A stretch of 64,000 nt of DNA, from NCBI GenBank assembly GCA_013289685.1, contig JABCZL010000010.1:1-64000 (forward strand), read 5' to 3'. The notes under the pieces are model-generated. The model was given only the letters and a program-made list of their open reading frames with translations. It was not told where the DNA came from and did no database searches. The position numbers were made by a program, and so were the translations under genes. Shown here piece after piece: positions 12,324 to 23,077 of the stretch (its first letter is position 1; every line of letters starts with the position of its first letter). The stretch comes from Acidobacteriota bacterium. Its GTDB lineage: Bacteria; Acidobacteriota; Terriglobia; Terriglobales; Acidobacteriaceae.

Positions 12324-12388
12324 TGGTGCCGGGAGGGGGAGTCGAACCCCCAAGACCCGAAGGTCGGCGGATTTTGAGTCCGCTGCGT
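12324..12388 (-). repeat. partial tRNA-Leu(CAA) 3' fragment, att-like copy 1
   Basis: 65 bp identical to 22991-23055 of the intact tRNA (tggtgccgggagggggagtcgaacccccaagacccgaaggtcggcggattttgagtccgctgcgt). Confidence 0.85.
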
Positions 12389-12773
12389 ATCACCGTATAC
12401 CTATGATAATAAGTAGTTTATCTTTCACAAACCGTGAAAGTGTGTAAGCAAATGTGCCGGTTTTGAAGGGTTTCCACCTGTCAGGTCGCAACAAGAACCT
12501 CGCGACGACGCGCTCTTTTCGAGCACTTTTTATCTGAGGCTCCGAGCGGCGCAAAATGCCCGCCTTTCCCCTCCCGTATACATTCTTGTCAATTCCCAAT
12601 CTCACCCGAGTGGGGAGCAGATCCCTCTCGCCGCTGTCACGCGTTGACGAACGTACTGGGGGCGGTGCATGCAGATTAGCCAATCAGATTGTGAAAATAG
12701 CGGCCTGAAACACTAGGCCTTGGTCAGTTTCGAAACGCCGAGGCTCCTCACTTAGTGCAGCGTATACGAGCGC

Positions 12774-12832
12774 TCCGGATCAGACGAGTCTATAATCCGA
12801 AATAGACGGAACATTAATCCGAATCAGACGGA
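12774..12832. promoter_or_regulatory. three 15-bp repeats (tccgg/a-atcagacgga type) at an exact 22-bp period
   Basis: tccggatcagacgag 12774, tccgaaatagacgga 12796, tccgaatcagacgga 12818; each has a TCCG...CGGA-like dyad. Confidence 0.7.
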
Positions 12833-12845
12833 GCCTTCACCCGGC

Positions 12846-14087
12846 ATGGACGATACCGATCACGAGCTCTTTCCTCGCTTTTCCGCCGAACTAGTGGCCA
12901 CCGCGCTCAAGGACACACCAGTCGTCATGGTTACGGGGCCTCGTCAATGCGGCAAGACCACACTGGTCCGCGATTTGGTCGCAGGCAATCGCGAATTCAT
13001 CACTATGGACGACGACACGGTCCTGGCTGCGGCACGCAGCGATCCAACTGGGCTAGTGCGGGCGCTCGATCGAACGACCATTGACGAAGTACAGCGAGTG
13101 CCCGACCTCCTCCGGGCCATCAAGAAATCGGTCGATGATGATCGTAGGGCCGGCCGGTTTCTGTTGACGGGCTCAGCCAATATCCTGACTCTGCCTCAGG
13201 TCTCAGAGAGTCTAGCGGGCCGCATGGAGATCGTGAGCCTTCTACCCCTCTCACGGGCTGAAATCCGAGGTAAGAAGCCGGGTTTCCTAAAAGCAGCGTT
13301 CGATAGCAAGCTTGGCAAACCTGCGGAACCAATGATCGGCAAAGACCTAGTACAGGCCGTCTTGATTGGTGGCTACCCCGAAATGCTGCGGCGCGAAGAT
13401 CCACAACGACGCCAGACATGGGCACGCGATTATGTAAGAGCCATCGTGCAGCGGGATGTGCGCGAGGTTGCCGACGTGGAAAAACTCGACCAAATGCCGC
13501 GTCTGCTACAGGTTCTTGCACACCATTCTGGCCAGCTCACCAATTTCACGCAGATAGGCGGCCAAGTTGGGTTTGACGACAAGACCACAAGGAAATACGT
13601 CGCCATCCTGGAGCAGTTGTTTCTCGTTCGTCGCGTGGAACCGTGGTTTCGGAACCAGTTGAAGCGTTTGGTAAAGACGCCCAAGCTGCATTTCCTTGAT
13701 TCGGGCCTCCTCGGCGCGCTCTTAGGAGCTAGTGCTGAGCGGGTCACGAAAGATCGTTCGATCTTCGGGCCGCTGCTCGAAACGTTTGTTTTCTCTGAGG
13801 TATTGAAACAGGCGTCTTGGTTCGATGAGAGCTGCGCTTTACACCACTACCGGGACAAAGATCAGGACGAGGTTGACCTTGTGATTGAAACGGGAAGTGG
13901 CGCATTGGTCGGTATCGAAGTCAAGGCGAGCGCCACCGTGAATGCTGGTGACTTCAAGGGACTCCGAAAGTTGGCGGAGACCTGCGGCCATAACTTCAAG
14001 CTAGGAGTAGTTCTCTACGATGGCGGAAGGCCAGTCCCCTTCGGCGATCGTCTTGTTGCTGCGCCAATGTCTTGCTTGTGGGTGTGA
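12846..14087 (+). CDS. AAA ATPase with DUF4143-type C-terminal domain
   Basis: Walker A GPRQCGKTTL, FLLTGSANILTLPQVSESLAGRMEIVSLLPLSRAEI, C-terminal DQDEVDLVIETGSGALVGIEVKAS. Confidence 0.9.
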   Translation: MDDTDHELFPRFSAELVATALKDTPVVMVTGPRQCGKTTLVRDLVAGNREFITMDDDTVLAAARSDPTGLVRALDRTTIDEVQRVPDLLRAIKKSVDDDRRAGRFLLTGSANILTLPQVSESLAGRMEIVSLLPLSRAEIRGKKPGFLKAAFDSKLGKPAEPMIGKDLVQAVLIGGYPEMLRREDPQRRQTWARDYVRAIVQRDVREVADVEKLDQMPRLLQVLAHHSGQLTNFTQIGGQVGFDDKTTRKYVAILEQLFLVRRVEPWFRNQLKRLVKTPKLHFLDSGLLGALLGASAERVTKDRSIFGPLLETFVFSEVLKQASWFDESCALHHYRDKDQDEVDLVIETGSGALVGIEVKASATVNAGDFKGLRKLAETCGHNFKLGVVLYDGGRPVPFGDRLVAAPMSCLWV

Positions 14088-14230
14088 CTCGAATTTTCGA
14101 GGTCTTCGGGTCGCAGTGGATGAAGGTGTAAGCGTCCCGGTTGTGACCGTCTAGACAAGTGGGCGACTTCCTTCCTTAACGTCATTCGCATCCAAGGAGA
14201 GAGCGCGCCCGGAAAGCGCTCGATTCGAGA

Positions 14231-14461
14231 ATGCAGAGAGTTCCGGTAGAGTCCAGCAGTATCGCCAGCATCGGCTACGCTCCTCAGGAACGCGTGCTAG
14301 AACTGGAGTTTCGTCAATCGGGCGAGGTCTATCAATACTTTGACGTGCCCGGCGAGGAATACACCGCATTCCTCGCCGCCGACTCCAAAGGCACCTACGT
14401 GAATCAGCAGCTCAAACCTCGGGGATATCGCTACCAGCGCCTCCCGTCCTCATCGAAATAG
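14231..14461 (+). CDS. KTSC-domain protein
   Basis: VESSSIASIGYAPQERVLELEFRQSGEVYQYFDVPGEEYTAFLAADSKGTYVNQQLK. Confidence 0.85.
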   Translation: MQRVPVESSSIASIGYAPQERVLELEFRQSGEVYQYFDVPGEEYTAFLAADSKGTYVNQQLKPRGYRYQRLPSSSK

Positions 14462-21241: not shown

Positions 21242-21250
21242 CGCCCCCAG

Positions 21251-21506
21251 GTGGTGGCTCAATTTGAAAAGAGTACTCCGGGTAAAACGTTGTCATCCTG
21301 ACGGAGCGCGCCCAGCGCTCCGGAGGGACCTTACGGGGCCCAGACATCGGTTGTACGGCGGCGAGGATTGCCTGCACTGCAGGAAGCGTCGGCGAGCCTG
21401 TTCGACGGCATCGATGGCATCGGCCCGCCGTAAGGTCCCTCGTGCCGGCTTCGCCGCCACTCAGGATGACATCAGGCTGAAGCAATTTTCAAAGTGAGCC
21501 ACTACC
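21251..21506. repeat. MITE-like imperfect inverted repeat element
   Basis: Outer ends gtggtggctcaatttgaaaa / ttttcaaagtgagccactac; inner arms tgtcatcctgacggag...gggaccttacgg / ...ccgtaaggtccct...actcaggatgaca. Confidence 0.65.
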
Positions 21507-21573
21507 CGCTCCCAGGTTTCATCACCGGGCCAGCGCGATGGTTCACATTCGATAGCCAGCGAAGGAGAAAAAC

Positions 21574-22761
21574 ATGCGGCGATTCGTAATACCGATCCTA
21601 TTATCTTTGAGTTTTTGTTGGGCACAGGAATCAGGCAGTTTTCAGCCCTCTACGACGAATGTATGGGCAGCGGAGTATCCGCGGGTTGACAGCACCGGGA
21701 GAGTACAGATTCGCGTCAAAGCTCCAGACGCTACGAAAGTCCGACTGAACTTCTGGAGCGGCCCGAAAGTGGACATGGAAAAACAGCAGGACGGATTCTG
21801 GACGGTTACCACTACGCCGCTGGTCCCTGGTTTTCACTATTACACGGTGATTGTTGACGGGGCCGAGGTCAGCGACCCCAACACTCACGCCTTCTTCGGA
21901 GGAGGAAAACCTGCAAGCGGCGTAGAGGTTCCGGAACCGGGCTCTACTTATTATTCGATCCAAGACGTTCCGCACGGCGCGGTCCGCGAGGTCTGGTACA
22001 GCTCGAAGGTGACGGGGACGTGGCGGCATGCGCTGGTTTATCTGCCGCCCGATTACGATACGAGAACTAACGTGCGCTATCCCGTGCTCTATTTGCAACA
22101 CGGCGCCGGCGAGGACGAGACCGGCTGGGTGCGTCAGGGCAACGCCAATTTCATCCTGGATAATTTGATTGCGGCCAAGAGTTGCAAGCCGATGATCGTG
22201 GTGATGGCCTACGGCTACGCGCACCGCGCGGGCGAGGCGCCTGTCGATCTGTTTGCCAAAGGATTTGGATCACCAGAAATGCTGAAGGCCATGCAGGACA
22301 TGGCAGCGGCCTTCGAAGATGACGTAACCCAAGCTCTCATCCCCTACATTGATTCCACCTTCCGCACGTTACCCGACCGTGAGCATCGCGCGATGGCAGG
22401 CCTCTCGATGGGCGGCATGCAGACCTACCAGATCACGCTGGATCATCTCGACCTCTTCTCTTACATCGGCGGCTTCAGTGGAGCGGGCGGGATGCTCGTG
22501 CTCGGAAATCGAAAACTGGATCCCAAGACCGACTACAACGGAGTCTTCGCAGATTCGGCAGCCTTCGCCAAGAAAGTGCACTTGCTCTGGCTTGGCGTGG
22601 GGACGAATGAACCGGAGAGAATGCGCACGGGACTCCAGAAACTGCATACGTCCCTACTGGAAGCAAACATCCAGCACGTCTTCTACGAATCACCCGGCAC
22701 CGACCACGAGTGGCAGACCTGGCGCCGCGATCTGAAAGATTTTGCACCGCGACTCTTCTGA
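21574..22761 (+). CDS. secreted CE1-like esterase with N-terminal CBM48/E-set-like domain
   Basis: Signal peptide; [58 protein letters not shown]. Confidence 0.85.
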
Positions 22762-22990
22762 TCCAGTCCAGGCTCGAGGGTCGAGATTCGGGGAGCTCTT
22801 TTAGAGTGTGGAGGAGGTGTGCAATCCATGCTCAATACAGCATTTTGTAAGTAAATTTACTATTTTCAGTTGGATAGACTAAACGCTCATTAGTTATATA
22901 TTGGCGCAAAATCCGCTCCGTCTGATGCCCAGGTTGATCGCATGCGGAGAGCAAGCCCAGGTAGCCGCATATTTTACAGGGTTTTTAAAG

Positions 22991-23077
22991 TGGTGCCGGG
23001 AGGGGGAGTCGAACCCCCAAGACCCGAAGGTCGGCGGATTTTGAGTCCGCTGCGTCTGCCAGTTCCGCCATCCCGGC
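22991..23077 (-). tRNA. tRNA-Leu (anticodon CAA), CCA encoded
   Basis: Reverse complement gccgggatggcggaactggcagacgcagcggactcaaaatccgccgaccttcgggtcttgggggttcgactccccctcccggcacca; anticodon loop CTCAAAA. Confidence 0.95.

Follow-up and report, generated by a model that had tools for sequence, protein, structure and literature searches.

A tRNA-Leu(CAA) gene as probable host of two tandem integrase-deleted elements in an acidobacterium

Stacked islands without integrases at RNA genes are already known (PMC3146451, PMC4383910). In Dehalococcoides, 15 islands lack an integration module (PMC3146451), and the Islander catalogue recognizes anticodon-centred sites as well as tandem arrays (PMC4383910). 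Here we analyzed a 64,000-nucleotide stretch of DNA from a soil acidobacterium (the window), which contains no Ns and sits within a 300-kb contig. Behind its tRNA-Leu(CAA) gene lie two segments, element A (15162..22990) and element B (12389..15090), which are very likely two tandem non-autonomous integrative elements, deleted for their integrases and of the cis-mobilizable type. Like the Dehalococcoides ssrA islands (PMC3146451), they stand in tandem behind one RNA gene, are bounded by fragments of its 3′ end, carry adaptive cargo and have no integration module, as is the case for many of those islands. However, the array here is two-membered and known from sequence alone, and it combines a tRNA-Leu anticodon core with a tyrosine integrase family, whereas the Dehalococcoides islands use the tmRNA 3′ end and a serine recombinase (PMC3146451). 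The intact tRNA with a displaced cognate fragment in the same orientation is also the hallmark of Islander islands (PMC4383910), but the Islander pipeline checks for an integrase and reports a tandem array only where every island has one of its own; since neither A nor B has one, both would be discarded. Finally, A and B resemble hitcher elements such as CALINs and MITEs (PMC11389934) in that recombination ends are kept, the recombinase is lost and dependence on a helper is proposed, with the difference that the ends are tRNA att sites rather than attC sites or transposon inverted repeats.

A known way of stacking islands thereby appears in a poorly studied bacterial group, in units that integrase-based island finders miss. 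Uncultured acidobacteria of peat and permafrost are thought to be important degraders of plant polymers, and little is known about how their enzyme and defence genes move. In the reading we favor, a single tRNA would be the docking site that a cassette for fibre degradation and a candidate defence gene have in common, allowing them to pass between species, and across at least one genus boundary, without an integrase of their own.

tRNA-Leu(CAA) copies and element ends

ARAGORN finds a single tRNA in the window, the intact target gene tRNA-Leu(CAA) at 22991..23077 on the minus strand. Pairwise extension revealed two copies of its 3′ part, both on the same strand and in the same orientation as the gene itself: an inner att copy at the A/B junction (15091..15161), identical to 22991-23061 over 71 bp (tRNA nt 17-87), and an outer att copy at the outer end of B (12322..12388), identical to 22989-23055 over 67 bp (tRNA nt 23-87 plus 2 nt). 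All three copies thus share tRNA nt 23-87, with the inner copy reaching to nt 17. An earlier note on this DNA had described the intact gene, the 71-bp repeat and the common orientation, all of which we recover. Its 65-bp repeat at 12324-12388 is present as the exact match between the two fragments (12324-12388 versus 15091-15155), but becomes 67 bp when compared with the tRNA, and its two segments of about 2.8 and 7.8 kb stand with slightly adjusted sizes, 2.70 kb for B and 7.83 kb for A. Exact identity of this extent is far beyond chance. Within the window's own genome (6.85 Mb), no further place of similar length exceeds 85% identity, and tRNA-Leu(UAA) ranks next; the copies are therefore specific to the CAA tRNA, and both chance and an ordinary paralogous tRNA are excluded as their source. 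The same genome holds a second, 78-nt tRNA-Leu(CAA)-like gene (G000:C12 199141-199218, L026), clustered with tRNA-Leu(UAG), Tyr and Ser, which is possibly element-borne.

Upstream of the intact gene, the motif ctgccgtacaat and a histidine kinase gene (23130..24548, minus strand; its response regulator follows at 24559-25239) are common to genomes G014, G005 and G022, and the kinase gene adjoins tRNA-Leu(CAA) in several relatives. The 5′ half and promoter side of the tRNA would accordingly be native, with the 3′ half probably derived from element A.

The earlier note had overlooked similarity beyond the tRNA part: the 112-nt repeat family takes in the flanks, and the arms of A and B are alike on both sides. 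Their tRNA-3′-side arms are 76-82% alike (76% over 80 nt; 82% over 174 nt including the tRNA part), and the DNA behind the outer copy is unlike that behind the tRNA 3′ end and the inner copy, as expected if the latter two positions hold element arms and chromosomal DNA follows the outer copy. On the opposite side, the arms have CACATTTRCTTACACANTTTNAC in common, at an identical distance of 68 nt from the same point in either copy; the opposite-arm motifs are CACATTTGCTTACACACTTTCAC in B (12434..12456, minus strand) and CACATTTACTTACACAGTTTTAC in A (15201..15223, minus strand). A search of the own genome with the DNA of B's outer arm returned nothing besides B's own copy. A and B therefore have the same kind of ends on both sides, which argues for two stacked elements. 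Both tRNA-side arms additionally contain a vestigial second core, GCAGACGCAGCGGA (tRNA nt 19-32), in B (15012..15025, minus strand) and a version with two mismatches in A (22912..22925, minus strand). In B, its offset to the aligned arm is 94 nt, versus 98 nt in the integrase-bearing genome G033.

Cargo, relatives and horizontal transfer

Read in the sense of the tRNA, the order is histidine kinase, tRNA, A, inner att copy, B, outer att copy and a flank with a sortase gene. All cargo genes lie on the plus strand. Element A encodes a putative esterase (21574..22761; Pfam PF00756, 6.5e-26), a GH51-type alpha-L-arabinofuranosidase (19640..21241; PF06964, 5e-48; PF22848, 4e-7), a tannase/feruloyl esterase family protein (18094..19632; PF07519, 7e-108) and a GH9 glycoside hydrolase (15351..18038, with an ORF that may begin earlier, at 15219; PF00759, 3e-19; PF02927, 1.5e-5), a plant-polysaccharide cargo that, judging by protein family, may constitute an arabinoxylan-type set. 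Element B encodes a KTSC-domain protein (14231..14461; PF13619, 1e-21) and an AAA_14/DUF4143 ATPase (12846..14087; PF13635, 9e-50; PF13173, 2e-25), the latter predicted as a candidate anti-phage defence protein (PADLOC PDC-S01; PDLC04790, 1.4e-175). The search made among viral contigs gave no relative of this protein, and no paper on DUF4143 together with an AAA ATPase emerged from a text search of the literature. Base composition was rejected as an island marker, the islands having a G+C content of 54.6% and 56.8% versus 57.6%.

We compared the locus with 44 further genomes of the same genus and with G079, which is assigned to another genus; all are drafts, mostly MAGs, whose contigs often break at the repeats. 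The DNA that follows tRNA-Leu(CAA) differs in nearly every genome, suggesting that this gene is an integration hotspot. Five other genomes of the genus have B at tRNA-Leu(CAA) or at part of this gene: at the tRNA in G022, G013, G021 and G044, where it occurs without A, and at an att fragment in G004. In the latter (G004:C88), B is followed by A via a second att copy, i.e., in the order B-A versus A-B in the window; A is longer there (~31 kb, with added GH3, GH31 and LacI genes), and B adds a TOTE-type primase-helicase. In G079 (C403), A and B stand in tandem behind tRNA-Leu(CAA) as in the window. An assembly gap, a two-base N run, lies in the att copy between them and also accounts for the apparent decay of that copy, a reading that we rejected. 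Copies of genes of A or B without a tRNA-Leu fragment beside them occur in G007:C154 and G022:C92. As a separate observation, the AAA_14 gene with short flanks (12771-14129) recurs in several genomes as a block whose sharp borders are almost identical. In G007:C154 this block has no tRNA-Leu copy near it, and it may move on its own.

The earlier note had proposed a search for an empty tRNA-Leu site in relatives, and none that joins both flanks was found among their genomes. The side of the tRNA and histidine kinase is conserved, and in G005 the DNA immediately following the tRNA resembles ~260 bp of the window's outer flank (score 37 versus ≤26 in 500 shuffles); G005 was the only match, the flanks of G014 and G021 giving none above shuffles. 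The sortase gene (11440..12198, plus strand; PF04203, 2e-32) is conserved together with a VWA gene in G023, G022 and G008 up to 12043. It did not serve as a guide to the empty site, as synteny ends at 12043 and no tRNA-Leu lies near the operon in the relatives read.

To place the cargo against the background of vertical descent, uvrA provides a conserved core gene. Its DNA identity to the window is 88% in G022, 87% in G044, 85% in G004, 82% in G013, 81% in G021 and G007, and 76% in G079, versus identities over the main island blocks of 91.5% in G022, 87-91% in G004, 89-91% in G013, 90-95% in G021 and 86-88% in G079, and 90.5% for AAA_14 only in G007. The difference is small in G044 (88.8% for the island), and the adjoining histidine kinase/response regulator region of G022 shows 77%. 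That the cargo is more similar between genomes than a conserved core gene is best explained by horizontal transfer, with discrete units as the moving parts.

An integrase remnant and a candidate helper family

Between 12.3 and 23.0 kb, neither A nor B has an integrase ORF, and a Pfam scan of their ORFs yielded neither an integrase nor a relaxase, which places them outside ICEs and IMEs. The island ends carry the intact tRNA and, in matching orientation, a displaced 3′ fragment of it; the integrase gene sought inside a tRNA-integrating island is lacking. The earlier statement that no integrase is visible is right as regards a gene, but a decayed integrase start is recognizable in B. Frameshifted and on the minus strand (14786..14876, start codon 14876-14874), it represents the opening ~30 codons of a tyrosine integrase gene and adjoins an integrase-side arm with the TTACACATTTTCG motif (14877..14931, minus strand). 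Together, 14786-14931 align to G033:C201 across both arm and integrase start (BLAST E 5e-7; score 73 versus ≤35 in 300 shuffles), where the integrase sits directly behind a tRNA-Leu(CAA) 5′ half. Decayed starts of the YKRPNHSLWCSSYLAGK type follow the arm in G013, G004 and B of the window, with tblastn values of 7e-7 in G013 and 0.03-0.04 in the other two; the window's copy (E 0.04) is weak at the protein level.

In G033 and G038 (CAA), in G005 and G024 (UAA) and in an IMG/VR contig, members of this integrase family immediately follow tRNA-Leu 5′ halves that are broken within the same core of the anticodon loop, which names the family as a candidate helper. Full-length members occur in G024:C93 and G005:C138 and partial or distant ones in eleven other genomes; none was found in the window's own genome at E≤1e-10. 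Members of the family score poorly in Pfam, yet match an HMM built on the integrases of the own genome. There, Pfam PF00589 gave 24 tyrosine-recombinase matches, none beside tRNA-Leu(CAA) and several adjoining other tRNAs (Glu, Leu-TAG, Ser, Arg, Met and Lys). On the viral contig (IMGVR_UViG_3300047170_000071; L288 4825-6449), a 62% relative is bordered on one side by a tRNA-Leu(CAA) 5′ half and on the other by the complete tRNA-Leu(CAA) gene, 1540 bp from core to core, and this unit is a candidate minimal integrative element, with the parent arrangement in its smallest form.

Origin and mobility of A and B

Taken together, we propose that each circular element was joined to the tRNA by recombination at the anticodon stem-loop (GCGGA-CTCAAAA-TCCGC), through a tyrosine integrase of the tRNA-Leu-specific family. 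As each element would have brought its own tRNA 3′ half and arm, the tRNA would have stayed intact and the old 3′ half would have been displaced to the far end. The ancestors of A and B would have been elements with an integrase that was later deleted, a derivation suggested for B by the integrase stub and for A by the related arms only. Both resemble cis-mobilizable elements (CIMEs) in that their attL and attR share arms and core with integrase-bearing copies and that they keep cargo genes but no recombination or transfer genes. At present, they may move by a related integrase acting in trans, as passengers of an accreted neighbor, or not at all in this genome. That two integrations took place at the tRNA 3′ part, as the earlier note had proposed, is supported by the related ends, the shared anticodon-stem-loop core, the independent occurrence of B, the reversed order of A and B, and an island identity above that of the core gene. 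Counting against our reading are the failure to find a two-sided empty site, the position of the sortase operon away from tRNA-Leu in the relatives read, the protein-level weakness of the window's integrase remnant, the gene copies in G007:C154 and G022:C92 that lack a tRNA-Leu fragment, and the draft state of the genomes compared.

Could A and B instead have entered once, as a composite island (an accretion element) that moves via the tRNA and the outermost att copy? The tandem in G079 speaks for this, since another genus shows the same order of tRNA, A, att and B at 86-88% DNA identity. However, the N run of that assembly lies exactly in the att copy, so that the scaffold order may be an assembly choice, and four genomes have B without A beside tRNA-Leu(CAA) while G004 has the order reversed. 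We consider a single entry conceivable but rather doubtful. Somewhat more credible, though still short of an even chance, is that both are dead remnants, which lost their integrase, have no helper and are fixed in the chromosome, their likeness to relatives reflecting transfer before the loss. The frameshifted stub, all that is left of the integrase, and the failure to find a family member in the own genome speak for this, and with A of ~31 kb in G004, A of the window may be a shrunken version. Against this, integrase-less copies of B are present in several species at 88-92% DNA identity, above that of uvrA, suggesting movement of the integrase-less form as such, and arms and core are still well kept. 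Partial tRNA copies can in principle also arise by slippage or unequal exchange, but an origin of the repeats by local duplication, or as by-products of homologous recombination in a tRNA pseudogene cluster, integrative elements playing no part, is contradicted by the relatives and highly improbable: from species to species, the cargo moves along with its arms and att copies, and the arms match the arm before a known integrase gene at the right spacing. Two integrase-deleted elements in tandem are the preferred reading, and they may have entered separately or as one composite.

The integrase-bearing elements and the deleted forms differ in which part of the tRNA they exchange. With the former, the chromosomal 5′ half stays in place, and any complete tRNA stands at the far end of the element (a 5′-half swap), as on the viral contig; a 5′ fragment with a distant full tRNA is also seen in G021:C4 and G006. 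A and B bring a 3′ half instead (a 3′-half swap), with a worn second core between 3′ half and arm. We infer that a 3′ half with ~65 bp was added before the old broken end, restoring the tRNA. It is tempting to speculate that an integrase-deleted family in Candidatus Sulfotelmatobacter and relatives (a genus label that is itself inferred for the window) still spreads between species by borrowing a divergent integrase of the tRNA-Leu anticodon loop, so that one integrase family would serve two opposite tRNA repairs, with parents swapping the 5′ half and deleted forms carrying a 3′ half and a vestigial core. We offer this tentatively, as an idea that may well prove wrong.

Several further arrangements were seen at tRNA-Leu genes. 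In G005 (C138 61636-78152, L134) and G024 (C93 29280-41070, L135), a tRNA-Leu(UAA) is split by an element with the full-length integrase, its halves lying 16.4 kb and 11.7 kb apart, respectively. In both near-complete drafts the split gene was the only tRNA-Leu(UAA) found, with no intact copy. This could mean that UUA is decoded by something that was overlooked, that the element has to excise, or that the assemblies are misleading. In G021:C5 (L129 5419-5556), the outer end of B passes from the core into the C-terminal part of an integrase of the same family and then into a tRNA-Leu-like 5′ part, a junction that differs from the window's. Within element A, the interval between the GH51 and esterase genes (21290-21475) contains a near-palindromic repeat (gtcatcctgacggagcg ... 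gccgccactcaggatgac) that looks like a dispersed repeat. Finally, a 2-kb element with a HipA-like gene and a small upstream ORF lies between a tRNA-Leu(CAA) 5′ fragment and a full tRNA in G006:C23 (L130 7155-8676).
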